Assembly (NCBI RefSeq): GCF_016756495.1
Contig: NZ_AP023243.1
Coordinates: 5,522,501-5,586,500 of the forward strand
DNA: 64,000 nucleotides
Reading direction: 5' to 3'
Source: Mesorhizobium sp. 113-3-3
GTDB lineage: Bacteria; Pseudomonadota; Alphaproteobacteria; Rhizobiales; Rhizobiaceae
Shown here: positions 2,979 through 49,704 of the stretch, one piece after another
Layout: every line of letters starts with the position of its first letter
Position numbering within the stretch: position 1 is the first letter of the stretch
Notes under the pieces: generated by a model
The model's input: the letters and a program-made list of their open reading frames with translations, nothing else
Told to the model about the DNA's origin: nothing
The model's database searches: none
Translations under genes and position numbers: made by a program

Positions 2979-5203
<2,225 letters not shown>

Positions 5204-5222
5204 GTCCTGTTCTTCCTGACCA

Positions 5223-5837
5223 TCAGCTGTCGAAGAAGACCGTTTCCTTCTCCCCCTGGAGATGGACGTCGAAGACATAGGTGTCGCCGTGGCGCTCGGC
5301 GATCAGCGTCGGCACGCGAACGCGATGCTCGATGCGCGCCAGGATCGGATCCTCGCCATTGGCTTTTTCCTCGTCGGAAAAATAGAGTCGTGTGTGCAGG
5401 CCGAGATTGATGCCGCGCGCGACGATCCACAGCGTGATGTGCGGCGCCATCAGGCGACCATCCCGGAACGGCACGCGGCCGGGCTTGATCGTCTCGAAGG
5501 CACAGACGCCCGTGTCCATGTCGGTCGGGCAGCGGCCCCAGCCGAAGAAGTTCGGATCGGCCGCGCCGCGCAATTCGGCCGGCGAATTGTAGAGCCCGTC
5601 GGCGTCCGCCTGCCAGATCTCGATCAGCGCATCCTTGAGCGGCGTGCCGGTGCCGTCGAGCACGCGGATATTGAGAGCGATGCGCTCGCCCCTGGTTTTG
5701 TCGTTGACCATGGTCGAGCCAAGATCACTCTCATAGACGCCGCTGATGCCGCAGAAATTCGGCGTCAGCCCGATATGGACGTACGGCCCGGCTGTCTGCG
5801 AAGGGCTCTCCTTGAGCCTGTCGAGCGACTGGCTCAT
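5223..5837 (-). CDS. pcaG: Protocatechuate 3,4-dioxygenase alpha subunit
   Basis: PcaG is the alpha subunit of the intradiol dioxygenase that opens protocatechuate between the two hydroxyls. The 204-residue product contains the family signatures TAGPYVHIGLTPNF near the N-terminus and LIEIWQADADGLYNSP around residue 75. The alpha subunit does not hold the iron but shapes the active site of PcaH. The start is ATG 5837, overlapping the pcaH stop; the upstream extension reads through pcaH in another frame and is rejected. Confidence 0.96.
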   Translation of the reverse strand: MSQSLDRLKESPSQTAGPYVHIGLTPNFCGISGVYESDLGSTMVNDKTRGERIALNIRVLDGTGTPLKDALIEIWQADADGLYNSPAELRGAADPNFFGWGRCPTDMDTGVCAFETIKPGRVPFRDGRLMAPHITLWIVARGINLGLHTRLYFSDEEKANGEDPILARIEHRVRVPTLIAERHGDTYVFDVHLQGEKETVFFDS

Positions 5838-6592
5838 CAATTGCCCTCCAGCCGGTTTTCGAACAGTGACGAACGGCGGCCGCGCAGCACGATGTCGAAC
5901 CTGTAGGCGAGCGCATCCATCGGAATGGTCGCCTGCGTGTCGAGGACGGCTGTCAGCGCCTCGATGGCCGCCTTGTCGGCGATACCGCGCACGATCGGGC
6001 ATTTCCAGATCAGCGGGTCGCCCTCGAAGTACATCTGCGTGATCAGGCGCTGGGCAAAGCCATGGCCGAAAACCGAGAAATGGATGTGCGCCGGGCGCCA
6101 GTCATTGGGTCCGTTCGGCCAGGGATAGGGCCCGGGCTTGACGGTGCGAAAGGCGTAGAAGCCATCCTCACCTGTAATGGTGCGGCCGCAGCCGCCGAAA
6201 TTCGGATCGAGCGGTGCCAGATAGCCATCCTTCTTGTGACGGTAGCGGCCGCCGGCATTGGCCTGCCAGAATTCGAGGAGCACGCCGGGAACGCCAACCC
6301 CGCGCTCATCGAGCACCCGCCCATGGACGATGATGCGCTCGCCGATGGCGCTCTCGCCGGGCCTGGCGAAATTGTGGATCAGGTCGGCGTCGAGTTCTCC
6401 CAGCATGGCATGGCCGAAAACCGGTCCGGCAATTTCCGACAGCGTGTTGTCGAAGGACAGAAGTGCCTTTTGCGGCGAGCGCAGCACCGAACTTTTGTAG
6501 CCCGGCGTCAGCGCCGGCGGATGCCATGTCCGGTCGCGCTGGAAGAAAGCGCCGGTCTCGGGCCTCCGGTTCGAGCCGGACTCAGCGGGCAT
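5837..6592 (-). CDS. pcaH: Protocatechuate 3,4-dioxygenase beta subunit
   Basis: PcaH is the iron-bearing beta subunit of protocatechuate 3,4-dioxygenase. In the 251-residue product the four expected Fe(III) ligands are present: Tyr117 (NAGGRYRHK), Tyr156 (PYPWPN), and His169 and His171 (RPAHIHFS). The intradiol signature [16 protein letters not shown] is intact. The start overlaps the end of pcaC by about 11 bases and the stop overlaps the pcaG start, so all subunits are translationally coupled. Confidence 0.96.
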
Positions 6593-6989
6593 TGTCGGCT
6601 CCGTCCATTTCCGAAAACAGGTCCTTGGCTATTCTGAAGGCACGGTTGGCGGCCGGCACGCCGGCATAGATGGCGACATGCAGGAACGCCTCGCAGATAT
6701 CGTCGCGCGTCGCGCCGGTGTTGGCGGTGGCGCGCACATGCAGGGCGACCTCCTCATCATGGCCGAGTGCGGCCAGCAGCGCCAGCGTGACGATCGAGCG
6801 CTCGCGCTTGCTGAGGCCCGGCCGTGCCCACACCGTTCCCCAGGCGGCCTCGGTGATCAGTTCCTGGAAGGGCTGATCGAAATCGGTGGCAGCGATCTCG
6901 GCCCGATCGACATGCCGATCGCCGAGCACCGCGCGGCGCACCGCGAGACCAGTGCGATACCTGGCTGCGTTGCCGGGGACTTCATCCAT
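6582..6989 (-). CDS. pcaC: 4-carboxymuconolactone decarboxylase
   Basis: PcaC decarboxylates gamma-carboxymuconolactone to beta-ketoadipate enol-lactone. The 135-residue protein is a single CMD (AhpD-like) domain with the conserved stretches [20 protein letters not shown] and [19 protein letters not shown]. The start is taken at ATG 6989 ([15 protein letters not shown]), which has a GGAG leader and overlaps the end of pcaD by only 8 bases. The alternative ATG 11 codons upstream is deeper in pcaD and lacks family similarity. Confidence 0.95.
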
Positions 6990-7791
6990 GGTTTTGTGCT
7001 CCAGAGGCAAGCGACGCGACAAATTCGCGGATCAGGGCGACCAGCGCTTCAGGCTGTTCGACGCAAGGGATATGTCCGGCGTCGCGGATGATCTCGAAAC
7101 GCGAACCGGGGATAAGGGCGGCCAGCGAGCGGACGAGAGGAGGAGGCGTCGAGCCATCCCGCTCACCGACGACGCAGAGCGTCGGCACCGAGATGCGGCG
7201 CGCCGCGTCGGTGAAATCGGCGTCGCGGATAGCGGCGCAGGTTCCGAGGTAGCCGGCGGGTGCTTGCCGCGTCATCATGTTCCAGTAGCCGTCCAGCTCG
7301 GCCACCCGCGCGGTGTGGAAGGCCGGAGTGAACCACAGTTTGAGCACGCTATCGGCAATGGCCTGGATGCCTTTGCGCTCGACGACCGCGATGCGGGTGT
7401 TCCAGCTCTCATTCGTGCCGATCTTGTGGGCCGTGTCGCACAGGATCAAGGCCTCGACGATCCCGGGGCGCCTGGCATAGAGGGCTTGTGCGATCATGCC
7501 GCCGACCGAGAGGCCGCACAGCACCACCTTCTTCCACCCGAAATGATCGATGAGGCCCGAGAGATCGTCGACATGATCGTCGATCGACTTGATGTCGCCG
7601 ATGTCGGACAGCCCGTGGCCGCGCTTGTCATAGACCAGCAAGGACATTTCGCCATCAAGTGCGGCGACAACATCGTCCCAGATCCGGAAATCGGTGCCCA
7701 GCGAATTGATGAATATGATCGCGCACGCATTGCCGGTCGCCTTGACGTGGCGATGATGCAGCGTGATGCCGCCGATGGTGACGAATGGCAC
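6982..7791 (-). CDS. pcaD: 3-oxoadipate enol-lactonase (GTG start)
   Basis: PcaD hydrolyses beta-ketoadipate enol-lactone to beta-ketoadipate. The 269-residue alpha/beta hydrolase shows the oxyanion region NSLGTDFRIW, the nucleophile elbow CGLSVGGM, an acidic residue in GERDGSTPP and the catalytic His in AGHIPCVEQP. The start is placed at GTG 7791 (reading VPFVTIGG), because a strong GGAGGA Shine-Dalgarno lies just upstream. The in-frame ATGs at 7815 and 7857 lie at or before that ribosome site and inside the conserved promoter module. It is the first gene of the pcaDCHGB-pobA operon. Confidence 0.93.
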   Translation of the reverse strand: MPFVTIGGITLHHRHVKATGNACAIIFINSLGTDFRIWDDVVAALDGEMSLLVYDKRGHGLSDIGDIKSIDDHVDDLSGLIDHFGWKKVVLCGLSVGGMIAQALYARRPGIVEALILCDTAHKIGTNESWNTRIAVVERKGIQAIADSVLKLWFTPAFHTARVAELDGYWNMMTRQAPAGYLGTCAAIRDADFTDAARRISVPTLCVVGERDGSTPPPLVRSLAALIPGSRFEIIRDAGHIPCVEQPEALVALIREFVASLASGAQNHG

Positions 7792-7800
7792 GATTTCGAT

Positions 7801-7877
7801 CCTCCTCCCCCACATTGCACAAGGCATTTGGTTCGGTAAAATGATATTTTTCGCCATTCCATTAACTCAGGGGTTAT
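7801..7877 (-). promoter_or_regulatory. pcaD promoter module, copy 1 of a duplicated 77-bp element
   Basis: Read on the minus strand, this segment aligns without gaps to 8848-8924 on the plus strand, with 61 of 77 bases identical by hand count. The match includes 24 consecutive identical bases (7827-7850). It starts with the PcaQ-type palindrome and ends in the GGAGG ribosome site of pcaD. The core presumably holds the RNA-polymerase site. Confidence 0.85.
7862..7877. promoter_or_regulatory. Candidate PcaQ binding site in the pcaQ-pcaD intergenic region
   Basis: The minus strand reads ATAACC-CCTG-AGTTAA. This matches the ATAACC-N4-GGTTAA-type palindrome that PcaQ recognises in Sinorhizobium at all but one arm position. 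It sits between the divergent genes, 7 bases before the pcaQ ATG, where it can activate pcaD and also affect pcaQ itself. Confidence 0.8.
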
Positions 7878-7884
7878 CAAATCC

Positions 7885-8802
7885 ATGGCCGAAAGCCGCA
7901 TCCGCTTCCGTCACCTGCAGGCATTCCTGGAAGTCGCGCGGCAAGGCAGCGTGGCCCGCGCCGCCGACTTCCTGCATGTCAGTGCGCCTGCGGTGACCAA
8001 GACGTTGCGTGAGTTGGAGGAGGCGCTCGGTGTCGCCGTCGTCGAACGTGACGGGCGCGGCATTCGCGTCACAAGGCTCGGCGAGATCTTCCTCGGCCAT
8101 GCCGGCTCGGCGATTACGGCGTTCAAGCGCGGCGTCGATTCCGTTCGCCAGGACGGCGCCATCAATCGCCATCCGATCCGCATCGGTGCGCTGCCGACCG
8201 TGTCGGCCAAAGTCATGCCGCAGGCCATCAGCCTGTTCCTCGGGGAAAATACCGGGGCGGCTATCAAGATCGTCACCGGCGAGAACGCCGTGCTGCTCGA
8301 GCAATTGCGTACCGGCGCGCTCGATCTGGTCGTCGGGCGGCTGGCGGCGCCCGAAAACATGACCGGCTTCTTCTTCGAGCATCTCTATTCCGAACAGGTG
8401 CTGTTCGTTGTGCGCGCCGGACACCCCCTGCTCGAACCGGGAGCGGATATCTTCGCACGGCTCGACGAATTCCCGGTGCTGATGCCGACCCGGGAATCCG
8501 TCATACGCCCCTTCGTCGATCGCCTGTTCATCACCAATGGCATGACCGCGCCGGCGACCGAGATCGAAACCGTCTCGGACTCTTTCGGCCGCTCCTTCAT
8601 GCGGCAGAGCAATGCGGTGTGGATCATCTCTGCAGGGGTCGTCGCCAACGAAATCGCCAGTGGCGCCTTCGTCGCCCTGCCGGTCGACACCGAGGAAACC
8701 AAGGGGCCGGTCGGCTTGACGATGCGGACGGATACGGCGCCCTCGCCCGCCTTCACAATCCTGCTGCAAACCATTCGCGAGGCGGCAAGGCCGGGCAAGT
8801 GA
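7885..8802 (+). CDS. pcaQ: LysR-type activator of the pca operon
   Basis: PcaQ is a LysR-type regulator that in rhizobia and Agrobacterium activates pcaDCHGB in response to pathway intermediates. The 305-residue product begins with a winged helix-turn-helix (RFRHLQAFLEVARQGSVARA, then DFLHVSAPAVTKTLRELEEA), followed by an effector domain from about residue 90. Identity rests on the N-terminal similarity and the divergent position next to pcaD, which is the standard arrangement. No good Shine-Dalgarno is visible before ATG 7885. The candidate operator lies immediately upstream, which would fit autoregulation. Confidence 0.95.
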   Translation: MAESRIRFRHLQAFLEVARQGSVARAADFLHVSAPAVTKTLRELEEALGVAVVERDGRGIRVTRLGEIFLGHAGSAITAFKRGVDSVRQDGAINRHPIRIGALPTVSAKVMPQAISLFLGENTGAAIKIVTGENAVLLEQLRTGALDLVVGRLAAPENMTGFFFEHLYSEQVLFVVRAGHPLLEPGADIFARLDEFPVLMPTRESVIRPFVDRLFITNGMTAPATEIETVSDSFGRSFMRQSNAVWIISAGVVANEIASGAFVALPVDTEETKGPVGLTMRTDTAPSPAFTILLQTIREAARPGK

Positions 8803-8847
8803 GGCGTCGGACCGTTCGGGCCGGGCTGCATCCTCTTCAGAAATTCG

Positions 8848-8863
8848 CTAACCCCAGGGTTAA
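8848..8863. promoter_or_regulatory. Candidate PcaQ binding site upstream of the HAAT operon
   Basis: The sequence CTAACC-CCAG-GGTTAA is a near-perfect match to the ATAACC-N4-GGTTAA PcaQ palindrome, better than the site at pcaD. Established work in Sinorhizobium meliloti shows that PcaQ also activates a protocatechuate-inducible ABC importer, so this is the expected location. Confidence 0.85.
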
Positions 8864-8924
8864 TGAAATACCGCAAAATATCATTTTACCGAACCAAAAC
8901 GCTGGTGCACTGTGCCGATGGAGG
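8848..8924 (+). promoter_or_regulatory. Promoter module of the aromatic-acid ABC operon, copy 2 of the 77-bp element
   Basis: This segment is a near-copy of the pcaD promoter (61 of 77 bases shared, no gaps), including an identical 24-base block at 8875-8898. It lies directly after pcaQ and 19 bases before the start of the binding-protein gene. The two operons should therefore share PcaQ control. Confidence 0.85.
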
Positions 8925-8943
8925 ACTACAGAGGGAGGAATGC

Positions 8944-10260
8944 ATGACCTACGTTAGCGGTAGCAGATCCAGTATTCGTGGCGTGTCGCGGCGCCAGTTC
9001 ATCGCCACCTCGATCGCCGGCGGCGCGGCACTCGCGCTCGGCGGCAGCAAGGCCTTCGCCCAGGCAGCCGGCACGCTCAAGGTCGGCTTCGTCAGCCCGC
9101 GCACCGGGCCGCTGGCCGGCTTCGGCCAGACCGACGGCTATGTGCTCGACCTTGCCCGCAAGGCACTCGCCGGCGGCCTCGAGATCGGCGGCAAGAAGTA
9201 TAGCGTCGAAATCCTCGACCAGGACACGCAGTCCGATCCTTCCCGCGCGGGCCAGCTCGCCAAGGACCTGATCAACAATCAGGCCATCGACCTGATGCTG
9301 GCGGTGTCGACGCCGGAGGTGATCAATCCGGTGGCCGACGCCTGCGAGGCCGCGGGGGTGCCCTGCCTGTCGACCGTCATGCCGTGGGAAGCCTGGTATT
9401 TCGGCCGCGGCGCCAAGCCCGGCGCGCCCTCGCCGTTCAAGTGGACCTATCATTTCGGCTTCGGCGTCGGCGAATTCTTCAAGGCCTATATCTCGCAATG
9501 GAACCTGATCGAGACCAACAAGAAGGTCGGCGTCATGTATCCCAACGACGCCGACGGCAACGCCATCCGCGCCAATCTGGCGCCGCTCTTGGCCAAGCAG
9601 GGTTTCACCATCGTCGATCCCGGCGCCTATGAAACCGGCACCACGGACTATTCCTCCCAGATCGCGCTGTTCAAGCAGGAAGGCGTCGAGATCTTCAACT
9701 CCTTCCCGATCCCGCCGGACTTCGCCGCCTTCTGGCGCCAGGCGGCACAGCAGGGGCTGATCAAGCAGATCAAGATCGCCCAGGTCGCCAAGACCGGCCT
9801 GTTCCCCTCCGACATCGAGGCGCTCGGCGATCTCGGCATGAAGATTTCGAGCGCCGCCTACTGGCACAAGGCGTTCCCCTATAAATCGCCTCTCACCGGC
9901 GTTTCGGGCACCGAGCTCGCCGACGGCTACGAGGCGGCAAGCGGCAAGCAGTGGACACAGCAGCTCGGCGCCTCGATGTCGCTGCTCGACGCCGGCTTCG
10001 AAGCGCTGAAGGCGAGCTCCGACGCCAAGGACAAGGCGGCGGTAGCCAAGGCGCTGAGCACGCTGAAGACCGAGACCATGATCGGCAAGGTCGATTTCAC
10101 CAGCGGCCCTGTCGCCAATGTCTCGCCCGGTCCGATCATCGGCACGCAATGGGTGGCCGCCAAGGAAGGCAGCAAATTCCCGCTCGACTATGTCGTGACC
10201 GAGAACGCCACCGACCCGAAGGTGCCTGTCGAAGCCAAGCTTCTGCCTTACAACGGCTGA
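8944..10260 (+). CDS. Branched-chain-type ABC solute-binding protein, probably for protocatechuate
   Basis: This 438-residue periplasmic binding protein belongs to the Leu/Ile/Val-type (HAAT) family. The N-terminus has a Tat-type twin-arginine signal (VSRRQFIATSIAGGAAL) ending near AFAQA, so it may be exported folded. The mature part begins TLKVGFVSPRTGPLAGFGQ, as usual for the family. The start is ATG 8944 with GGAGG upstream; the 27 in-frame codons before it are promoter sequence. Position under a PcaQ-type promoter and synteny with the S. meliloti protocatechuate importer suggest the ligand is protocatechuate or a related aromatic acid. Confidence 0.9.
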   Translation: MTYVSGSRSSIRGVSRRQFIATSIAGGAALALGGSKAFAQAAGTLKVGFVSPRTGPLAGFGQTDGYVLDLARKALAGGLEIGGKKYSVEILDQDTQSDPSRAGQLAKDLINNQAIDLMLAVSTPEVINPVADACEAAGVPCLSTVMPWEAWYFGRGAKPGAPSPFKWTYHFGFGVGEFFKAYISQWNLIETNKKVGVMYPNDADGNAIRANLAPLLAKQGFTIVDPGAYETGTTDYSSQIALFKQEGVEIFNSFPIPPDFAAFWRQAAQQGLIKQIKIAQVAKTGLFPSDIEALGDLGMKISSAAYWHKAFPYKSPLTGVSGTELADGYEAASGKQWTQQLGASMSLLDAGFEALKASSDAKDKAAVAKALSTLKTETMIGKVDFTSGPVANVSPGPIIGTQWVAAKEGSKFPLDYVVTENATDPKVPVEAKLLPYNG

Positions 10261-10284: not shown

Positions 10285-11025
10285 GTGACCCATCCGCAAC
10301 AACAGGCTGTTCTCACCGCTGCCGGTATCCACAAGCGCTTCGGCGCGCTTGTGGTGCTGGATGCGGTCGACTTCACCATGTCGGCCGACGAAGCGGTCGG
10401 CATTGTCGGCCCGAACGGCGCCGGCAAGACGACGCTGCTCAGCGTGCTCGCGGGTGCCTTTCCACCGAGCTCAGGCACGGTCCGCTTCAAGGGTGGTGAC
10501 GTGACGGCGCTGCCGGCGACGCAGCGCTGCCGGCTTGGGCTGGTGCGCACGCACCAGGTGCCCAAACCATTCAGCGGCATGACCACATTCGAGAATGTCT
10601 TCGTCGCCGCCTCGCATGGCGCCGGCCTTGCCCGCGATGAAGCCTATGAAGAGGCGCTCGGCTCGCTGAAACTGTGCGGCATGCTCGGTGTCGCCAACCG
10701 CCGCGCCGAAACGCTCGGCCTGCTCGACCGCAAGCGGCTGGAACTGGCGCGCGCGCTTGCGGCAAGGCCGACGCTGCTGTTGCTCGACGAGATCGGCGGC
10801 GGCCTGACCGACGGCGAGGCCGGCGAGCTTGTCGACACGATCAAGGAATTGCGCCGGCGCAAGATCGGCATCGTGTGGATCGAGCACATCGTCCATATCC
10901 TGCTGCAGGTCGCCGAGCGGCTGATCTGCATGGACGCTGGGAAAATCATCGCCGACGGCGATCCGCAGGCCGTCATGGCCGATCCGGAGGTCGTGCGCGC
11001 CTATCTCGGCGGAGGCCCGAAATGA
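10285..11025 (+). CDS. HAAT ABC transporter ATPase, LivG type, with degenerate signature motif
   Basis: This is a 246-residue cytoplasmic ATPase with a GTG start 24 bases after the binding-protein gene. Walker A is GPNGAGKTT (residues 42-50), Walker B ends in LLLLDE with Glu169, and the H-loop is WIEHIVHIL (His201). The expected LSGGQ/LSYGQ signature is absent: the aligned segment (about 144-153) reads LGLLDRKRLE. The partner ATPase carries a normal signature, so one of the two ATP sites would be non-canonical. It overlaps the next gene by four bases. Confidence 0.92.
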   Translation: MTHPQQQAVLTAAGIHKRFGALVVLDAVDFTMSADEAVGIVGPNGAGKTTLLSVLAGAFPPSSGTVRFKGGDVTALPATQRCRLGLVRTHQVPKPFSGMTTFENVFVAASHGAGLARDEAYEEALGSLKLCGMLGVANRRAETLGLLDRKRLELARALAARPTLLLLDEIGGGLTDGEAGELVDTIKELRRRKIGIVWIEHIVHILLQVAERLICMDAGKIIADGDPQAVMADPEVVRAYLGGGPK

Positions 11026-11750
11026 GCCTGTTGTCGGTCGAGGATCTCGTTGTGCGGCATGGCCTCTTACAGGCGGTGCGCGGCGTGAGCTTCACTGTCG
11101 AGCGCGGCGAGACTTTGGCGCTGGTCGGCGCCAACGGCGCTGGCAAGACAACGCTGCTCAGGGCAATCGCCGGCGCGCATCAGCCGGCCGCCGGGCGCGT
11201 GCTGCTGGACGGAGCCGATCTCACCAGCGTGCCGTCGCACAGGCGCGTCGGCATGGGCATCGCCCTGGTGCCGGAGGGGCGAAAGCTCTTCGTGCAGATG
11301 ACGGTCGAGGAAAACCTTCTGCTCGGCAGGACAGCCGGCCGGACGGGCGACTGGAGCGTCGACAAGGTACTGGAGATGTTTCCGAACCTGAAGCCGCGCC
11401 GGCACGCCAAGACCGGCCATCTCTCGGGCGGCGAGCAGCAGGCGACGGCGATCGGCCGCGCGCTGATGAGCAACCCGGACGTGCTTTTGCTCGATGAGGT
11501 TTCGCTCGGCCTGTCGCCGCTGATCGTCGACCGTGTCTATGCGGCCCTGCAGGGGTTGATCGCTTCCGGCACGACCATCATCCTGGTCGAACAGGATCTC
11601 AACCGAGCGCTGTCGGTTTCCGACAGGGTGATCTGCATGCTGGAAGGTCGCATCGCGCTCGAAGGGCCGAGCAAGGCAGTGTCGCGCGACGATGTGACGA
11701 AGGCCTATTTCGGCCTGCACCGGAAAAGCCCCGGGAGCGTTCCGGCATGA
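11022..11750 (+). CDS. HAAT ABC transporter ATPase, LivF type
   Basis: This 242-residue ATPase has Walker A GANGAGKTT (36-44), the signature LSGGEQQATAIGRAL and Walker B LLLLDE. ATG 11022 overlaps the stop of the first ATPase, and the stop overlaps the downstream permease. It forms a heterodimer with the preceding LivG-type ATPase and drives import of the operon's aromatic ligand. Confidence 0.94.
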   Translation: MSLLSVEDLVVRHGLLQAVRGVSFTVERGETLALVGANGAGKTTLLRAIAGAHQPAAGRVLLDGADLTSVPSHRRVGMGIALVPEGRKLFVQMTVEENLLLGRTAGRTGDWSVDKVLEMFPNLKPRRHAKTGHLSGGEQQATAIGRALMSNPDVLLLDEVSLGLSPLIVDRVYAALQGLIASGTTIILVEQDLNRALSVSDRVICMLEGRIALEGPSKAVSRDDVTKAYFGLHRKSPGSVPA

Positions 11751-12643
11751 GCAATCAGATCATCCAAGGCGTTCTTCTCGGCGGCTACTACGCGCTGATC
11801 GCCTGCGGCCTGTCCTTCATGTTTTCGGTGATGCGCATCATCAACCTCGCGCATGGCAGCCTTGCCGTGTTCGCCGCCTTTGCCCTGTGGTGGCTGGCCT
11901 CACGGTTCCATATCTCGCCGTTCATCGGCCTGCTCATCGTGCTGCCGCTGATGGCGGCGATCGGCTGGGCGCTGCAGCGCTTCCTGCTCGAGCGCAGCGC
12001 GCGCGGCGGTGCGCTGCTGCCGATCCTGACCACGTTTGGCCTCGCCATCGTCATCGACAACATGCTGTTCGAGCAGTTCGGCGCGGACACGCGTTCGCTG
12101 GCGCCCTATATCGGCAGCCTGTCCTATGATTCCTGGGAGTGGCCGGGCAGCATCTATGTCGGCAAGCTAGCCGTGATCATGTTCGCCACCGCCGTGATCC
12201 TGCTCGGCGGGCTGCAACTGTTCCTCACCCGCACAAGGCTTGGCCGCTCGATCCGTGCCACCTCGGAAGATCCCGACACAGCCGGCCTGGTCGGCGTCGA
12301 CGCGCGCCGCGCCAATGCTATCGCTGCCGCTATCGCCATGGTGACGGTCGGCCTTGCCGGCGCTTTCCTGGGCATGCGCGCCACCTTCGATCCCTATGCC
12401 GGCGCGCCGCAATTGCTGTTCGCCTTCGAAGCGGCGGTTATCGGCGGCGCCGGTTCGCTGTGGGGCACGCTGATCGGCGGCATCGTGCTGGCGCTGGCGC
12501 AGACGCTCGGCGCGCAGGTGCATCCGCAAGGCTTTCTGATCGGCGGCCATGCCGTGTTCCTGGTCGTGCTGTTCGTGCGGCTTTCGACCTCCGGCCTCGG
12601 CCTGCGCGGCCTGTTGCGTCTGCCTTCCCGGAGCGCGTCATGA
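11747..12643 (+). CDS. HAAT ABC transporter permease, LivH type
   Basis: This 298-residue inner-membrane permease begins with the LivH-like GVLLGGYYALIACGLSFMFS and has GAGSLWGTLIGGIVLALAQT near residue 240. Multiple hydrophobic helices run throughout. The start and stop both overlap neighbouring genes (ATGA), placing it within the five-gene importer operon. Confidence 0.94.
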   Translation: MSNQIIQGVLLGGYYALIACGLSFMFSVMRIINLAHGSLAVFAAFALWWLASRFHISPFIGLLIVLPLMAAIGWALQRFLLERSARGGALLPILTTFGLAIVIDNMLFEQFGADTRSLAPYIGSLSYDSWEWPGSIYVGKLAVIMFATAVILLGGLQLFLTRTRLGRSIRATSEDPDTAGLVGVDARRANAIAAAIAMVTVGLAGAFLGMRATFDPYAGAPQLLFAFEAAVIGGAGSLWGTLIGGIVLALAQTLGAQVHPQGFLIGGHAVFLVVLFVRLSTSGLGLRGLLRLPSRSAS

Positions 12644-13704
12644 GCGCCGTCTCCTCCTCACCGGTCATCGAGCGCGGCACGACGGCGTCGCGGATCGCGG
12701 CGATTGCGGTCGCCGTCATCATCGCGCTGCTTGCTTTCGCCCCACAGGTCCTCTCGGCCGGCGCGGTCGACCGCATGACGGCATTGTTCATCTATGTGAT
12801 CCTGGCGGCGATGTGGAACGCGCTTGCCGGCTTTGGCGGCCTGGTCTCCGTCGGCCAGCAAGTGTTCTTCGGGCTCGGCGCCTATTTCGCCATCCGGTTG
12901 GCCGATGTCGGCCTCAACCCCTTTGCCGCGCTTTTCGTCTCGGCGATCGTTGTCGGCGCGGTCTCCTGGCCGCTGTCGCTGTTCATGCTGCGGCTGAGAA
13001 ACGGCGAGTTCGCCATCGGCATGTGGGTGATCGCGGCGCTGACGCATCTCCTGGTCAATCTCGACCGGCTGGTGCAAGGCGAGACCGGGACGTCGCTGAT
13101 CTCGCTCAATGTCTACGATGCCGGCACCCGACGGACTGTTATCTACTGGCTGGCGCTGGCGTCGATGACCGCGCTGCTTGCCATTCTGTTCGGCCTGCTG
13201 CGCGGCAGCACGGGTGCCGCCATCCGCGCCATCCGCGACAATGAGGATGCCGCCGCCTCGGTCGGCGTGCGCGTCACCGGCACGAAGCGGCTTTTGTTCG
13301 TGCTTGCCGCCTTCGGCATCGGCATTGCCGGGGCGCTGTGGCTGGCGACCTCCATCACCTTCCAGCCGAAGACCTACTTCAACGTTCAGTGGACCGCCTA
13401 CATGATCTTCATGGTGCTGGTCGGCGGCATCGGCACGTTCGAGGGCGCCATTCTCGGTGCACTGGTGTTCTTCCTCATCGAGACCTGGTTCGGCGGCACC
13501 GGCGTCTGGTATCTGGTCGGCCTCGGCGCCACGGCGGTGCTGTTCTCGCTGTTCCTGCCGCGCGGCCTGTGGGGGACGATCGAGGAGCGCTTTGGCTTGC
13601 GGCTGCTGCCGGTCGGCTACCGCGTCAGGCTTCTGGCCACCGCTGTCGACGGCGACGCGACACCCTCGCCACAACAATCCACGACATCTCGGGAGAAAGC
13701 ATGA
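12640..13704 (+). CDS. HAAT ABC transporter permease, LivM type
   Basis: This 354-residue permease partners the LivH-type protein. It shows the LivM pattern ALAGFGGLVSVGQQVFFGLG near residue 65 and AIRAIRDNEDAAASVGVRV near residue 195. A hydrophilic C-terminal tail of about 35 residues extends beyond the last helix. The start is ATG 12640, in the stop of livH. The upstream 167 codons in this frame are a shadow of that gene. Confidence 0.94.
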   Translation: MSAVSSSPVIERGTTASRIAAIAVAVIIALLAFAPQVLSAGAVDRMTALFIYVILAAMWNALAGFGGLVSVGQQVFFGLGAYFAIRLADVGLNPFAALFVSAIVVGAVSWPLSLFMLRLRNGEFAIGMWVIAALTHLLVNLDRLVQGETGTSLISLNVYDAGTRRTVIYWLALASMTALLAILFGLLRGSTGAAIRAIRDNEDAAASVGVRVTGTKRLLFVLAAFGIGIAGALWLATSITFQPKTYFNVQWTAYMIFMVLVGGIGTFEGAILGALVFFLIETWFGGTGVWYLVGLGATAVLFSLFLPRGLWGTIEERFGLRLLPVGYRVRLLATAVDGDATPSPQQSTTSREKA

Positions 13705-14492
13705 CCATGCTTTTCGGCAAGACGATCCTCATCACCGGCGTCGCTTCCGGCATTGGCGCGCGCACGGCGGAACTTGCCGGCCAGCTTGGCGCCGATGTCA
13801 TTGGCGTCGATGTGCGCGAGCCGGCGGCAGCGGTGGGCAGTTTCGTCAAGGCCGATATCTCGTCGAAGGCCGGCGTCGACGAACTGGTCGCACGCCTGCC
13901 GCAGCGCATCGATGCGCTCTGCAATGTCGCCGGCCTTTCCGGCAACACCGGCGCGGCAGCGACGCTGGCCGTCAATTTCTACGGCCTGCGGGCACTTTCG
14001 GAGGCATTGGCGCCAAAACTTCGTGAAGGCGGCGCCGTCGTCAACGTCGCCTCTATCGCCGGCTATGGCTGGCGCGCCAATCTTAACCGTGCGGCCTCGA
14101 TGGTCGGCATCGAGGGTTTTCCCGATGTCGCTGAGGTGGTCGCCAATCACGCGGTCAAGAACGAGGAAGGCTATCCCGTCTCGAAGGAACTGCTGTTGCT
14201 GTGGACCTTTCGCGCGGCGCACCAGGACCTGTTCAAACGCCGTGGCATTCGCGTCAATGCGGTGAGCCCGGGACCGGTCGAGACGCCGATCCTGAAGCAG
14301 TTCCGCACCGTGCTTGGCGATGCCCGCGTCGACAGCGACATTGCCAGGGTCGGACGGGCCGGCACATCCGGCGACATAGCGCCTGTCGTACTGTTCCTGT
14401 GTTCGGACGGCGCGCGCTGGGTCAACGGCGCCAATGTGCCGGTCGACGGCGGCCTCGAAGCATCTATCAACGCCGAAGTGCTCGGCTTCTAA
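13701..14492 (+). CDS. Short-chain dehydrogenase, coniferyl-alcohol-dehydrogenase-like
   Basis: This is a 263-residue classical SDR. The cofactor motif TGVASGIG is at 12-19, the catalytic Ser is near 118 (VNVASIAGYG), and Tyr158 and Lys162 form YPVSK. The overall pattern (CNVAGLSG, SPGPVETPIL, GARWVNGANVPVDGG) resembles the Pseudomonas CalA type, which oxidises coniferyl alcohol to coniferaldehyde. The ATG overlaps the livM stop, so it belongs to the PcaQ-linked importer operon. Specificity is inferred; other aryl or hydroxysteroid alcohols remain possible. Confidence 0.8.
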   Translation: MTMLFGKTILITGVASGIGARTAELAGQLGADVIGVDVREPAAAVGSFVKADISSKAGVDELVARLPQRIDALCNVAGLSGNTGAAATLAVNFYGLRALSEALAPKLREGGAVVNVASIAGYGWRANLNRAASMVGIEGFPDVAEVVANHAVKNEEGYPVSKELLLLWTFRAAHQDLFKRRGIRVNAVSPGPVETPILKQFRTVLGDARVDSDIARVGRAGTSGDIAPVVLFLCSDGARWVNGANVPVDGGLEASINAEVLGF

Positions 14493-14525: not shown

Positions 14526-15971
14526 ATGGATATCGGACTTCTGATCGACGGCGACAAAAGGGATGCGTCCGGCTCGGCCTCTTATGAGCGCATGGACCCG
14601 TTCACCGGCAAACTGGCAACGCGCGCCGCGGCGGCGAGCGTCGCCGACGCCAATGCCGCTGTGGAAGCCGCGGCCGCGGCCTTTACGACCTGGTCGAAGA
14701 CCGGGCCTGGCGAACGCCGCGCCCTGCTGTCCAAGGCGGCAGATGTGATGGCCTCCAAGGTCGGCGAATTCACCAGGCTGATGATGGAAGAGACCGGGGC
14801 CACCGGTCCCTGGGCCGGCTTCAACGTGATGCTGGCGGCCAACATGCTGCGCGAGGCGGCGGCGATGACGACGCAGATTTCGGGAGAGATCATCCCCTCC
14901 GACAAGCCGGGGACGCTGGCCATGGCGATCCGCCAGCCGGCCGGCGTGTGTCTCGGCATCGCGCCGTGGAATGCGCCGGTCATTCTCGGTACCCGCGCCA
15001 TCGCCATGCCGATCGCCTGTGGCAACACCGTGGTGCTGAAGGCCTCGGAAATGTGCCCGGGCACGCACCGGCTGATCGGCCAGGTGCTGGTCGAGGCCGG
15101 CCTGCCCAAGGGCGTCATCAATGTCGTCACCAACGACCCCAGGGATGCCGCTGCGATCGTCGAGGCGCTGGTCGCGCATCCCTCGGTCAAGCGCGTCAAC
15201 TTCACCGGCTCGACCAAGGTCGGCCGCATCATCGCCGAGCTCGCCGGCCGGCACCTGAAGCCGGCACTGCTTGAACTCGGCGGCAAGGCGCCGCTGCTGG
15301 TGCTCGACGATGCCGACATCGACGCGGCGGTCAATGCCGCCACCTTCGGCGCCTTCATGCATCAGGGCCAGATCTGCATGTCGACCGAGCGGCTGATCGT
15401 CGACGAGAAGGTCGCCGACGAATTCGTTTCCAAGCTCGCGGCCCGCGCCTCGCAGCTGCCGGCGGGCGATCCGCGCGGCCATGTGGTGCTAGGCTCGCTG
15501 ATCAGCAGCCAGGCGGCCGACAAGATGGAGGAGCTCGTGGCCGATGCTGTCGCCAAGGGCGCCAGGCTTGTCGCCGGCGGCAAGCGCACTGGCACCGTTG
15601 TCGAGGCAACGCTGCTCGATCATGTCACGCCGGCCATGCGCGTCTATGCCGAAGAATCCTTCGGGCCGGTCAAACCGGTCATCCGGGTGAAAGGCGAGGA
15701 CGAGGCCGTGCGTGTCGCCAACGATACGGAATACGGCCTGTCGTCGGCCGTGTTCAGCCGCGACATCAAGCGAGCCATGGCGGTCGCCGCGCGCATCGAG
15801 GCCGGCATCTGTCACATCAATGGCCCGACGGTTGGTGACGAGGCGCAGATGCCGTTCGGCGGCGTCAAGGGCTCGGGCTACGGCCGCTTCGGCGGCAAGG
15901 CCTCGATCGCCGAATTCACCGATCTGCGCTGGGTGACGATCGAGGATCCCGGCCAGCACTATCCGTTCTGA
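14526..15971 (+). CDS. NAD(P)-dependent aldehyde dehydrogenase, vanillin/benzaldehyde type
   Basis: This 481-residue ALDH has the catalytic Asn149 (APWNAPV), Glu250 (LELGGKAP) and Cys284 (QGQICMSTER). The segment IRQPAGVCLGIAPWNAPVIL and the gap-free length are typical of vanillin/salicylaldehyde dehydrogenases. A good ribosome site (GAGGGAGA) precedes ATG 14526, 33 bases after the SDR. With the SDR it could take aryl alcohols through aldehydes to acids such as vanillate or ferulate. No vanillate demethylase is present in the window. Confidence 0.85.
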   Translation: MDIGLLIDGDKRDASGSASYERMDPFTGKLATRAAAASVADANAAVEAAAAAFTTWSKTGPGERRALLSKAADVMASKVGEFTRLMMEETGATGPWAGFNVMLAANMLREAAAMTTQISGEIIPSDKPGTLAMAIRQPAGVCLGIAPWNAPVILGTRAIAMPIACGNTVVLKASEMCPGTHRLIGQVLVEAGLPKGVINVVTNDPRDAAAIVEALVAHPSVKRVNFTGSTKVGRIIAELAGRHLKPALLELGGKAPLLVLDDADIDAAVNAATFGAFMHQGQICMSTERLIVDEKVADEFVSKLAARASQLPAGDPRGHVVLGSLISSQAADKMEELVADAVAKGARLVAGGKRTGTVVEATLLDHVTPAMRVYAEESFGPVKPVIRVKGEDEAVRVANDTEYGLSSAVFSRDIKRAMAVAARIEAGICHINGPTVGDEAQMPFGGVKGSGYGRFGGKASIAEFTDLRWVTIEDPGQHYPF

Positions 15972-16004: not shown

Positions 16005-16931
16005 TCAAACGGCCAGGGACGGCGTGAAGCGAACGCTGGCGGATCGCATCAGACCGGGCGCCAGCACGATGCAGCCAGTGTCGATACGGCCGCCGGCGCG
16101 GTTGAAGGCATCCGTGATGTTGCTGACCGGCTCGACGCAAAAGAACGGCTCGCCTGGCGGCGTGTAGAGGACGAGGAAATCGAGCGGCGCCTCGGCCTCG
16201 ATGTCCAGCCGACGCCCCTGCTCCGGCCAGGTGATCCGGGCACGGCGCGCCCATCCGGTGAAGACCGTGTCGAAGTCCGCTTCCGATACGTCAAAGCCGA
16301 TGGACGGGTCGGCTCCAGCTGGCGGCAGGACGTGCCTGACGGGCAGGACCTCCCCATCGATTTCCCACATGCCCGACACCGGCGCCTGGACATGCGTCCA
16401 CGGCGTCGACGGGAAATAGGGATGGAGGCCGAAGCCGACCGGCATCGGCGCGTCCGACAGGTTGCGCACTGTCACGGTTATGCAAAGCATGCCGTCGGCC
16501 AGCGTGACCTCTTGCTCGGCCTCATAGCTCCATGGCCAGGAATCGGCGGCGTGGCGATAGCGCAGGACGATCGTGCTCGCTTCATGCCTGACAACCGCCC
16601 ACGGGCTGCGCCAGCCATGGCCATGCTCATGGTGCGGGTCCTCGGGTCTGCTGGGGAGCTGGACGGTACGTCCAGCGAACTCGAAGCGGCCACCCCTTAT
16701 GCGGTTGGAATAGGGAACGAGCGGGAAGCAGGCCATGGCGCCGGCATCGCGGCCGCTGATCGCCGCCGGATCCGCCGGGCGTAACCAATCCACAGCGGCG
16801 CCATCTTGCCACCATCGATACGACGCCAGCGCGCCGCCGGCGGCCGGAGCAATGTCGACTGTCGCGATGCCGTCGCTGATCGAGACCAGTTCCGAGTGCT
16901 GCGCGGCAATGGCAGCAAAATTCTTTGTCAT
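16005..16931 (-). CDS. Aldose 1-epimerase family protein
   Basis: This 308-residue galactose-mutarotase-fold enzyme interconverts alpha and beta anomers of aldoses. Expected catalytic regions are visible: the His-rich PHHEHGHGWR near residue 95, GFGLHPYF near 175, and the catalytic-Glu loop VEPVSNITDAFN near 275. The start is ATG 16931, preceded by GGGGGAG. It is divergent from the GntR regulator of a sugar-oxidation operon, so it probably supplies the anomer used by the sugar 1-dehydrogenase. Confidence 0.88.
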   Translation of the reverse strand: MTKNFAAIAAQHSELVSISDGIATVDIAPAAGGALASYRWWQDGAAVDWLRPADPAAISGRDAGAMACFPLVPYSNRIRGGRFEFAGRTVQLPSRPEDPHHEHGHGWRSPWAVVRHEASTIVLRYRHAADSWPWSYEAEQEVTLADGMLCITVTVRNLSDAPMPVGFGLHPYFPSTPWTHVQAPVSGMWEIDGEVLPVRHVLPPAGADPSIGFDVSEADFDTVFTGWARRARITWPEQGRRLDIEAEAPLDFLVLYTPPGEPFFCVEPVSNITDAFNRAGGRIDTGCIVLAPGLMRSASVRFTPSLAV

Positions 16932-47049: not shown

Positions 47050-47750
47050 GCGATGTGCTGCTCCAGGCCGAGAATGTCGGCATCCGCTTTGGCGGGCTGC
47101 AGGCGCTGGAAGGGTTGAACCTGACGGTGTGCGACAGGGAGCTCTGCTGCATCATCGGGCCGAACGGCGCCGGCAAGAGCACCTTCCTCAACCTTTTGAC
47201 CGGCACGCTGCGCCCGACCAGCGGCAGCGTGCGTTTCCTCGGCCACGACATTGCCGGCCTGCCGCTGCACCGCATCGCCCGGCTCGGCATTGCCCGAAAA
47301 TTCCAGATTCCGTCGGTCTTTCCGAGCCTCTCGGTCGAGGACAATCTCAAGGTCGCACGGTGGGGCGCCCCCTCCCCGGCTCGTCCGGTCGGCGAACTGC
47401 TTGACCTCGTCGCGCTTGGCAGCCGCGCCGCCACTCTGGCCGGCGAACTCGCGCATGGCCAGAAGCAATGGCTGGAGATCGGCATGGCGCTGGCGATCGA
47501 GCCAAGGCTGCTTTTGCTCGACGAACCGACCGCCGGCATGACACCGCAGGAAACGCTGGCGACAGCCGAGATGCTGCTGCGGCTCAAGGGCGAGTTCTCG
47601 ATCGTGGCGGTCGAGCACGACATCCGCTTCGTACGGGCGCTGAACTGCGAGACGCTGGTGCTGCATCAGGGACGCCGGCTGCGCAGCGGTCCTTTCCACG
47701 ACATCGAGACCGACGAAATGGTCCGCGACGTCTATCTGGGGAGGCGCTGA
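47046..47750 (+). CDS. ABC transporter ATPase, UrtD type
   Basis: This 234-residue ATPase has Walker A GPNGAGKSTF (38-47), the signature LAHGQKQWLEIGMAL and Walker B LLLLDEPTAGMTP. The GQKQWLEIGM and PTAGMTPQET stretches are hallmarks of the urea/short-chain-amide UrtD subgroup rather than LivG. It is coupled to the permease upstream by overlap. Confidence 0.93.
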   Translation: MSDVLLQAENVGIRFGGLQALEGLNLTVCDRELCCIIGPNGAGKSTFLNLLTGTLRPTSGSVRFLGHDIAGLPLHRIARLGIARKFQIPSVFPSLSVEDNLKVARWGAPSPARPVGELLDLVALGSRAATLAGELAHGQKQWLEIGMALAIEPRLLLLDEPTAGMTPQETLATAEMLLRLKGEFSIVAVEHDIRFVRALNCETLVLHQGRRLRSGPFHDIETDEMVRDVYLGRR

Positions 47751-47752
47751 CC

Positions 47753-48454
47753 ATGCTGCGGACATTGGCGGTCTCGGCAGGCTACGGCCTGCTCCCGGTG
47801 CTGAACGGTATCGACCTCAGCGTGGCGTCAGGCGAAGTCGTCGGCCTGCTCGGCCGCAACGGCGCCGGCAAGACGACACTGCTGCGCGTCATCGCCGGCG
47901 GCCTGAAGGCAAGCGGCGGCGCGGTGGTTCTCGGCGACCAGGACCTTACCAACGCGCCGGCCTTCCGCCGCGCGCGAGCCGGCATCGCGCATGTGCCGCA
48001 GGGGCGCGGCATCTTCAACCAGCTGACCGTGCGGCAGAACCTCGAAGTCGGCACGCGCGCCGCCCGGGACCGTGGCGACGGCGGCATTCCTGACGACATC
48101 TTCGGCTATTTTCCGATCCTGCGCGAACGCGAAGCGCAAATCGCCGGTACGCTGTCGGGCGGCCAGCAGCAGATGCTGGCGATCGGCCGTGCGCTGTGCG
48201 GCCTGCCGTCGGTGCTGCTGCTCGACGAGCCCTCGGAAGGCATCCAGCCGAACATCGTGCAGTCGATCGCCGAGCTGGTGCCGCGCATCGCGCGCGAGCG
48301 CGGCATCGCGATCGTTCTGGTCGAGCAGAATCTCGATCTCGTTCTCAAGGCGGCGGACCGCTGCCTGGTGATGGAGAAGGGCAGGACCGTGCACGAAGGC
48401 ACGCCGGAGGCGTTCGCCGACGAGAGCCTGCTGAAGGATTTGTTGGCCCTATAG
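47753..48454 (+). CDS. ABC transporter ATPase, UrtE type
   Basis: This 233-residue ATPase has Walker A GRNGAGKTT, the signature LSGGQQQMLAIGRAL and Walker B LLLDEPSEGIQPNIVQ. The EPSEGIQPNIVQ string is diagnostic of the UrtE/FmdF-associated subgroup. The start is ATG 47753, with GGGGAGG spanning the end of the preceding gene. Together with the UrtD-type partner it indicates a urea or amide ligand. Confidence 0.93.
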   Translation: MLRTLAVSAGYGLLPVLNGIDLSVASGEVVGLLGRNGAGKTTLLRVIAGGLKASGGAVVLGDQDLTNAPAFRRARAGIAHVPQGRGIFNQLTVRQNLEVGTRAARDRGDGGIPDDIFGYFPILREREAQIAGTLSGGQQQMLAIGRALCGLPSVLLLDEPSEGIQPNIVQSIAELVPRIARERGIAIVLVEQNLDLVLKAADRCLVMEKGRTVHEGTPEAFADESLLKDLLAL

Positions 48455-48534: not shown

Positions 48535-49704
48535 ATGATAAGCAGAAGAACGATCCTCAAATCCGGCGGCGCTGCCGCCGCCTTCGCCATGGTCGGCGCG
48601 CCGTCGATCCTGCGCGCCGCCGACACCGTCAAGGTCGGCCTGTCGATCCCGATCACCGGATTGCAGGCGATCCTCGGCGAGACGCTGCTCAACTGCTACA
48701 AGCTCGCCGCCGCCGAACTCAACGCCGCCAACGGCATTGGCGGCCGCCAGGTCGAACTGTTCATCGAGGACAACCAGACCACGACCAAGGGCTCGATCGA
48801 CAAGGCGCGCAAGCTCCTCAACGAGGACAAGGTCGACGTGATCATGGGCACGATCATTTCGCCCGAGCGCAGCGCGACGCTGTCGGTGACCTCGAAGGCC
48901 AAGAAGCTTTTCTTCTACCCGACCAATTTCGAAGGCGGCGAATGCAATCGCTACTTCGTCGCCACCGGGCCGATCCCGATGCAGCAGGTCGACCCGATGA
49001 TGCCGTGGGTGGCCGAGAATCTCGGTAAGACGATCTATGTCATGGCCTCCGACTATGCCTGGCCGCAAAAGATGACCGAGGCGATCACGGCGGCCTATGA
49101 GAAGGCCGGCGGCAAGATCATCGGCGCCGACTACTATCCATTCGGCACCACGGATTTCGGCCCTGCCTTCCAGAAGATCAAGTCGCTGAAGCCCGATGTC
49201 GTCTGGTCGATGGTGGTCGGCAACGACGCCGTCACGCAGCTCAAGCAGTATCGCTCCTTCGACATCAAGCAGCCGCTGATCGCGCCGCTCGACGAGGTCT
49301 TCAACAAGGACGCGCTGCCGCCCGGCGTTGCCGCCGGCACCTACGCGCCGCAGCCCTACTGGATGGCGCTCGACAATCCGGTCAACAAGAAGTTCATCGC
49401 CAGCTTCCGCGAAAAGTTTGGTCAGGAAAAGATGGTCAACGGCATCGGCGAGGCCGGCTATAACGGCCTGCATCTCTACGCACTGGCCGCCGAGAAGGCC
49501 GGATCGTTGAAGGACGACGATGTGCTCAAGGCGCTGCCGACCATCGAGTTCGACGCCCCGCAAGGCAAGATCCGCGTCGATGCCTCCAACAACCACACGC
49601 TCTGCCATTCCTATGTCGGCAAGGCGGCGGCGGACGGCATCAGCTACGAAATCGCCAAGGATTTCGGCACCATCGCGCCGGTCACGCCCTACTGCAAAGT
49701 GTAG
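48535..49704 (+). CDS. Urea/amide-type ABC solute-binding protein
   Basis: This 389-residue periplasmic protein has a clear Tat signal (ISRRTILKSGGAAAAFAMVG) with a cut near ILRAAD. The mature start DTVKVGLSIPITGLQAILGE, FFYPTNFEGGECNRYF and YGRTTDF-like region (PFGTTDFGPAFQKI) belong to the UrtA/FmdD/AmiC-like group that binds urea or short amides. AAGGGAAC precedes ATG 48535. Unusually for urt operons it is the last gene, not the first. It should capture the compound acted on by the deacetylase-family enzyme. Confidence 0.9.
   Translation: MISRRTILKSGGAAAAFAMVGAPSILRAADTVKVGLSIPITGLQAILGETLLNCYKLAAAELNAANGIGGRQVELFIEDNQTTTKGSIDKARKLLNEDKVDVIMGTIISPERSATLSVTSKAKKLFFYPTNFEGGECNRYFVATGPIPMQQVDPMMPWVAENLGKTIYVMASDYAWPQKMTEAITAAYEKAGGKIIGADYYPFGTTDFGPAFQKIKSLKPDVVWSMVVGNDAVTQLKQYRSFDIKQPLIAPLDEVFNKDALPPGVAAGTYAPQPYWMALDNPVNKKFIASFREKFGQEKMVNGIGEAGYNGLHLYALAAEKAGSLKDDDVLKALPTIEFDAPQGKIRVDASNNHTLCHSYVGKAAADGISYEIAKDFGTIAPVTPYCKV

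Follow-up and report, generated by a model that had tools for sequence, protein, structure and literature searches.

A pcaD promoter copied across pcaQ to the front of an ABC importer operon in Mesorhizobium, as read from sequence comparison

Introduction

The activator PcaQ of Agrobacterium and Sinorhizobium is encoded divergently from pcaD of the pcaDCHGB operon, with an operator shared between both genes, an arrangement which is also found in the Mesorhizobium locus described here. In 2008, MacLean reportedly footprinted pcaD from -78 to -45, and M. loti is said to be named there among the conserved sites. Agrobacterium PcaQ activates pcaBGHCD and is autorepressed (PMC12285266), and the HAAT importer pcaMNVWX of S. 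meliloti (SMb20568 operon) is under PcaQ control (PMC4495286, PMC5002191). The pcaM gene of Rhizobium leguminosarum is treated in PMC4495286, and regulon statistics in PMC4560400.

The window, a stretch of 64,000 nucleotides from Mesorhizobium sp. 113-3-3, carries two copies of a PcaQ-type promoter on either side of pcaQ, one before pcaD and one before an importer operon, while the S. meliloti stretch examined (L109) carries a single copy. The initial annotation referred to Sinorhizobium as a precedent for PcaQ control of both operon types, which holds insofar as a PcaQ-controlled HAAT importer exists there; pcaMNVWX is, however, not orthologous to the importer of the window and thus not a direct parallel. 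S. meliloti pcaMNVWX resembles the window importer in its HAAT type and in a PcaQ operator followed, at an offset of 32, by an element close to TCATTTTAC, but differs in that extended identity with the pcaD promoter is not seen. The annotated Phyllobacterium pcaMNVWX, unlike the window operon, includes no dehydrogenase genes. Closer in gene order, solute-binding protein to aldehyde dehydrogenase, is an operon on Rhizobium plasmids (L114, L115), six proteins of which are 76-86% identical to those of the window, although another aldehyde dehydrogenase gene and a divergent AraC-type gene precede it.

Results

The gene names are backed by NCBIfam models, with PcaD (TIGR02427), PcaQ (TIGR02424) and PobA (TIGR02360) all above cut-off. 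The gene pcaD (6982-7791, minus strand, GTG start) is by gene order the first of pcaDCHGB-pobA (about 2979-7791). Between both promoter copies lies pcaQ (7885-8802, plus strand), which codes for the LysR-type activator (414.7 bits, cut-off 303.8); its closest named relatives are from Mesorhizobium species (M. jarvisii, 99%). The importer operon follows on the plus strand with a HAAT-type solute-binding protein (8944-10260, ATG start; 79-86% identical to proteins of other genera), two ABC ATPases, LivG-like (10285-11025) and LivF/UrtE-like (11022-11750), and two permeases, LivH/UrtB-like (11747-12643) and LivM/UrtC-like (12640-13704), these four with family matches below the curated cut-offs. 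The short-chain dehydrogenase at 13701-14492 belongs to the coniferyl-alcohol dehydrogenase subfamily (NF009092, 368 bits, cut-off 242), a name which depends on a single subfamily model. The aldehyde dehydrogenase gene (14526-15971) is the last of the cassette; four relatives without the cassette resume at 16005-16018. The presence of two dehydrogenase genes hints at a pathway in which aromatic alcohols or aldehydes are oxidized to acids; with PobA and the Pca enzymes encoded next door, this would feed protocatechuate. Comparison of the solute-binding protein with solved structures gave putative leucine/isoleucine/valine-binding proteins as best match (E 1.8e-12) and no substrate, and no characterization of the operon was found in the literature on coniferyl alcohol dehydrogenase and rhizobial ABC transporters.

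The two promoter modules, the source copy on the minus strand at 7801-7877, which extends from the operator to the Shine-Dalgarno site of pcaD, and the derived copy on the plus strand at 8848-8924, show 61 identities in a gap-free alignment of 77 positions, the longest uninterrupted run being 24 bases, exactly as counted by hand in the initial annotation. Also the extent from operator to ribosome site is as described there, as similarity dwindles past the operator at one end and past GGAGG(A) at the other. In 127,848 placements along the two strands of the window, the 77-mer matches at 18.6 positions on average (s.d. 3.7), the second-best ungapped match within the window reaches 37 of 77, and the binomial tail for 61 of 77 is about 2e-21 at p = 0.27. 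With up to three mismatches allowed, the 21-mer ATATCATTTTACCGAACCAAA occurs in the 7.73-Mb genome (three contigs) at these two places only, both free of mismatches, and its backward control nowhere. Equally, the operator combined with TCATTTTAC at the spacing of the window is, with up to three mismatches, restricted genome-wide to both copies, each without mismatch, against three matches of the backward control. Among the Mesorhizobium pcaQ loci examined, the pcaD promoter module is present in all (61/61).

Both modules start with a PcaQ-type operator, ATAACCCCTGAGTTAA for pcaD (7862-7877, minus strand) and CTAACCCCAGGGTTAA for the importer operon (8848-8863, plus strand), the latter being a palindrome of the proposed ATAACC-N4-GGTTAA kind with an exact TAAC-N6-GTTA. 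The second conserved element TCATTTTAC is found 32 bases downstream of the operator TAAC in the pcaD copy (7836-7844, minus strand) and exactly, with the same spacing, in the importer copy (8881-8889, plus strand), and thus is placed as in other PcaQ promoters. Spacing suggests TTTACC as -35 (7835-7840, minus strand) and, 17 bases further, CAATGT as -10 (7812-7817, minus strand) of pcaD, and TTTACC (8885-8890) and CACTGT (8908-8913), both on the plus strand, as their counterparts before the importer. With these putative hexamers, the predicted transcription start of pcaD falls some 66 bases away from the centre of the operator; a distance of about 66 is reported for pcaD. TCATTTTAC would then lie at about -40 to -32, overlapping the -35 TTTACC, and may combine the -35 with the activation subsite of a LysR-type promoter.

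The ORF-finder starts ATG 7857 (pcaD) and ATG 8863 (importer) lie inside the promoters, upstream of the predicted transcription starts, and are likely mis-annotations. The copied Shine-Dalgarno-like GGAGG (8920-8924, plus strand) is not followed by a nearby start codon, and the importer operon has its own Shine-Dalgarno site at about 8934-8939. Among the relatives, a start codon 4-15 bases past the Shine-Dalgarno site is seen in 16 of 45 importer copies versus 45 of 45 pcaD copies. On the other side of the pcaD operator, only 7 bases separate its end from the ATG of pcaQ and no Shine-Dalgarno site is visible for pcaQ (7862-7885), so that pcaQ may be leaderless and placed for autorepression.

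Although the run of 24 identical bases had been put forward as a mark of duplication, its core recurs in PcaQ promoters outside the genus, that of Sinorhizobium pcaD among them, and the run is therefore not specific to this duplication. In a first survey of 199 genomes of the family, the 21-mer matched in 35, mostly at one place per genome, and 26 of the 29 loci examined adjoin pcaQ; matches without pcaQ or pcaD are L085, L100 and L106. As choice by the 21-mer favours conserved sites, loci were chosen anew by the PcaQ protein, which matched in 88 of the 199 genomes at 89 loci, 74 of them with a readable PcaQ N-terminus (the 15 left out had none in the fetched stretch). Outside Mesorhizobium this gave 72 loci, 58 with adjoining pcaD and 14 without a pcaD match. 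At 55 of the 58 pcaD loci, TCATTTTAC with at most one mismatch, 47 times exact, lies 32-33 bases from the operator TAAC, while none of 1440 shuffled sequences reached as good a total; the pcaD loci without the two-part pattern are L229, L236 and L244. Among PcaQ-like loci without adjoining pcaD, 2 of 14 fit the pattern with up to three mismatches, and some distant PcaQ loci have a weak second element or none, the Halomonas-type ones (L071-L079) being among those that lack it. All 21 rows of true pcaM promoters, from at least 13 genomes with some places counted twice, carry TCATTTTAC, as does, exactly, the pcaD promoter of S. meliloti. In the pcaM promoter of S. meliloti, TCATTTTTG, which differs from TCATTTTAC by two changes, likewise stands at offset 32 behind the operator ATAACCGGGGGATTAT, a site quoted in PMC5002191; the reference point of this site was taken as the transcription start, as the start codon is about 134 bases off in the sequence. 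These alignments show that the second element is conserved across PcaQ loci, and TCATTTTAC would have a role in promoter function. From a family-wide search for the two-part pattern with two mismatches (81 of 199 genomes) no count is drawn, because the backward control matched in many genomes, too.

Variants of the second element were also encountered. In L171, L172 and L215, from at least three genomes of other genera, it reads TGATTTTAC, with the identical change in each; the PcaQ genes of L171 and L172 contain one TGA within the matched frame. In L261 (G190), a gene coding for a protein 79% identical to PcaM is preceded by a perfect operator and TCATTTTAC, then by the differing sequence TTTGGTCATC.

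That the whole promoter and leader had been copied across pcaQ, as initially proposed, agrees with three features of the relatives: likeness of the two promoters in stretches which are not conserved elsewhere, pcaD 5' remnants, and the promoter tree. In 46 genome pairs, from 45 Mesorhizobium loci and the window, the paired pcaD and importer promoters agree on average at 62.2 of 77 positions (57-67). In comparison, for 66 pcaD promoters from other genera the mean agreement with the Mesorhizobium consensus of pcaD is 45.0 of 77, though the best of them, with 59, comes close below the Mesorhizobium pair. Broken down by part, the agreement within the Mesorhizobium pair versus that of other genera is 0.99 versus 0.77 for the element and 0.73 versus 0.64 for the operator, but 0.79 versus 0.43 for the spacer, 0.73 versus 0.39 downstream and 0.69 versus 0.34 for the Shine-Dalgarno part. 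Orthologous loci with similarity in the 16-bp operator alone were looked for and not found.

Most telling, the importer leaders of six relatives (L034, L035, L036, L047, L051 and L160; L047 and L148 probably represent one genome) retain, in decayed form, the start codon and the adjoining 5' part of pcaD. Aligned to their own pcaD from the Shine-Dalgarno site onward, these leaders score 30-37 against at most 22 in 50 shuffles each; that of L160 reads MPFVSNDGIALHHR, where its own PcaD starts VPFLNIGGVTLHHR. The same alignment against shuffles gave no clear remnant in the other 40 of 45 leaders (L003-L065), short leaders being unable to show any; five of the 45 (L023, L029, L032, L041 and L063) score barely above their own shuffles, L024 and L030 reach just the best shuffle score, and the remaining non-remnant leaders score below. 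No remnant is found in the importer leader of the window, which comprises only 24 bases. In a FastTree phylogeny with 60 of the 66 promoters of other genera (at most five mismatches to the core), all 46 importer promoters fall into one group (support 0.93), nested in a Mesorhizobium-only group of 92 leaves (support 0.81), which gives moderate support to a single origin of the importer promoters. The deeper nodes inside the Mesorhizobium group have little or no support (0 for one node of 63 leaves), which leaves the timing of the copying uncertain. The donor promoter of pcaD is still present at 7801-7877, and the importer copies of these six relatives carry donor sequence beyond the functional site. 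Agreement where other promoters differ, together with decayed pcaD starts in the leaders, shows at the level of sequence that the pcaD promoter and the 5' end of the gene were copied, and in which direction.

In L160 (6040-6260; G262), the start codon of the decayed pcaD shares its reading frame with the gene of the binding protein, so that a short PcaD-importer fusion could be made.

Gene conversion between the copies is not claimed. Paired copies agree slightly better than unpaired ones (62.2 versus 61.3; 0 of 5000 shuffles), also without column 44 (0 of 3000 shuffles) and additionally without one clade (p 0.0007), but the excess fades once close relatives are thinned, with p of 0.02, 0.05, 0.15 and 0.55 for 25, 16, 10 and 8 representatives, respectively.

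The binding protein of the importer is encoded in 63 of 146 Mesorhizobium genomes. The 21-mer is present once forward and once reverse in 62 of these 63 versus none of the 83 genomes without the binding protein, in which it is found in two same-strand copies in 3, in one copy in 29 and not at all in 51. The single exception (G346) is a contig end, where the contig starts inside the binding-protein gene; in G335, gene and 21-mer pair are on separate contigs. Among 18 genomes named by locus, the gene is missing from the 15 that have no second copy next to pcaQ and present in the three controls. Across the genomes compared, promoter and operon are thus shown to be linked. Losses of the cassette must have happened, as in L017 and L042 the 3' end of the operon's aldehyde dehydrogenase gene is left directly behind pcaQ. 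The cassette is cleanly missing in L043, L050, L053 and L059, where pcaQ is followed by DNA matching the window from 16005-16018 onward; in L049 and L058 it is followed by DNA matching the window at 25-31 kb, and L056, L060 and L064 showed no match to window DNA beyond pcaQ. Transfer of the cassette between species may also have occurred.

Of the HAAT importer expected from the initial annotation, the HAAT-like character is retained, but not orthology with Sinorhizobium PcaMNVWX. Searched in the genome of the window, Phyllobacterium PcaM finds 24% identity as best hit by E-value, and no hit that spans most of its length exceeds 27%; pcaMNVWX was not found in this genome with this query, and the solute-binding protein does not qualify as an orthologue of PcaM. 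The PcaM proteins of 11 other Mesorhizobium are 77-84% identical to the same query. True pcaMNVWX, which in Mesorhizobium has its own PcaQ-type promoter, is located convergently with pcaQ in L018, L019, L021, L028 and L057 (M. amorphae and others; PcaM 78-80%) and behind pobA in L148 and L150 (83-84%). That the importer operon replaces pcaMNVWX as a rule was considered and rejected. True PcaM (at least 70% identity) and the importer operon occur together in 1 of 13 genomes, where 5.6 would be expected in 146 (hypergeometric 0.005, kinship ignored), which is suggestive only, and of the 94 genomes in which the 21-mer occurs, 22 possess neither of the two; the 13 genomes are the 16 matching PcaM minus three with hits of 38-54% identity.

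In other genera, the genes of the importer operon have another upstream context. An aldehyde dehydrogenase gene precedes the operon of close relatives in all eight long stretches, throughout which a PcaQ-type promoter was not found, and the promoter core is absent from 12 of 12 loci of other genera within the approximately 1.5 kb examined upstream. On the two Rhizobium plasmids, a divergent AraC-type gene is annotated upstream besides the aldehyde dehydrogenase gene, and no PcaQ promoter was found at these loci either. The second permease is 69-76% identical in other genera. Before the operons of four more distant relatives (56-60%) in other genera a different gene is located, with a dehydrogenase-like hit in L134 and L135 and none identified in L136 and L137.

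Discussion

On the whole we consider it quite probable that the promoter of pcaD, along with the start of pcaD, was copied to the front of the importer operon and brought both operons under joint control of PcaQ. Copying would have occurred early in, or before, the Mesorhizobium radiation. Of the divergent pcaQ-pcaD region, the part facing pcaD would have been copied, including operator, second element, core promoter, leader and pcaD start with at least the first approximately 15, perhaps approximately 40, codons; it would have been inverted, placed on the far side of pcaQ and joined to a seven-gene operon of importer and dehydrogenase genes which had probably lost its first gene. The pcaD scrap would then have decayed, down to the leader of 24 bases in the group of the window.

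Joint control of both operons is expected, as the copied promoter most likely brought the importer operon under PcaQ. With the pathway inducer, PcaQ would activate pcaDCHGB-pobA jointly with the importer operon, using two nearly identical promoters; it would bind the palindrome approximately 66 bases before the start, with each promoter working by way of TCATTTTAC and the -35 which overlaps it. At 8848-8924, binding and induction would follow the same scheme. The importer would take up a presumably aromatic substrate, the oxidation of which feeds protocatechuate.

The likeness of the promoters might also stem without any copying from the shared sequence demands of PcaQ and RNA polymerase. Operator and TCATTTTAC are indeed kept across many genera in the promoters of both pcaD and pcaM, and the 24-base run falls there, but this reading is very improbable: the promoters agree also where there is no conservation elsewhere, pcaD coding remnants stand behind the importer promoter, and pcaM promoters, under equal constraint, share by eye with pcaD only operator and element, not the spacer. 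Those remnants, a pcaD-type start retained behind the promoter in six relatives, make it hardly conceivable that the common sequence is translated, as a coding leader or extended N-terminus, even though the frames from 7857 and 8863 are both open into the respective gene. The shared bases are read in different frames (KNIILPNQ versus RKISFYRT), and both ATGs are upstream of the predicted transcription start.

Copying granted, it could have happened elsewhere, the operon having been imported already with a PcaQ promoter and a pcaD fragment. The patchy distribution of the operon and its plasmid-borne relatives in Rhizobium are in line with such an import, which is nevertheless distinctly unlikely, as none of the 12 loci of other genera has such a promoter in the stretch examined, the importer promoters group with Mesorhizobium pcaD promoters, and the remnants resemble pcaD of their own genome. 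A PcaQ promoter copied within Mesorhizobium could finally be a relic, with the importer driven by another promoter and PcaQ control absent or minor. We regard this as unlikely; the copied Shine-Dalgarno site indeed looks unused in the window, but operator, element and spacing have been kept in derived copies while the adjoining pcaD scrap decayed, and in 146 genomes the divergent pair never occurs without the operon.

Promoter capture is a known kind of event. In Cit+ E. coli of the long-term evolution experiment, a duplication (rnk-citT) reportedly set an existing promoter before a transporter gene. Different from this, the copy in the window is natural, inverted and presumably regulated, and is kept with its operator in many species of the genus. 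The window clearly adds a new natural example to promoter capture by regulons, and the scar of the event is unusually good. The growth of regulons is often argued from point mutations that create sites, whereas here a whole promoter and the start of the old gene were copied, and the stages of decay of the pcaD scrap can be traced across one genus. A report of the importer-promoter copy was not found in the accessible parts of the PcaQ and Mesorhizobium literature, including PMC5002191, PMC12285266, PMC4495286, PMC4560400 and PMC12442348 and few subscription journals.

The comparison provides a testable definition of PcaQ promoters beyond the 16-base palindrome and predicts the substrate class and the regulator of the importer. 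A more far-reaching proposal, which we put forward tentatively, is a two-part PcaQ grammar of palindrome and, about three turns downstream, TCATTTTAC, with the Mesorhizobium regulon having grown by copying the whole unit, start of the target gene attached, onto an operon for phenylpropanoid-type alcohols that filled the transporter role of pcaMNVWX elsewhere.

Additional observations concern related genes at other places. In G264 (L161 and L162, contig C147), two pcaQ-pcaD loci are present about 32 kb apart on one strand, and the importer was not found. The window itself contains more HAAT-type genes at 47150-47900 and 48571-49641, a region which is matched by the importer-operon DNA of relatives and is the site of the best hit (24%) of the PcaM query.
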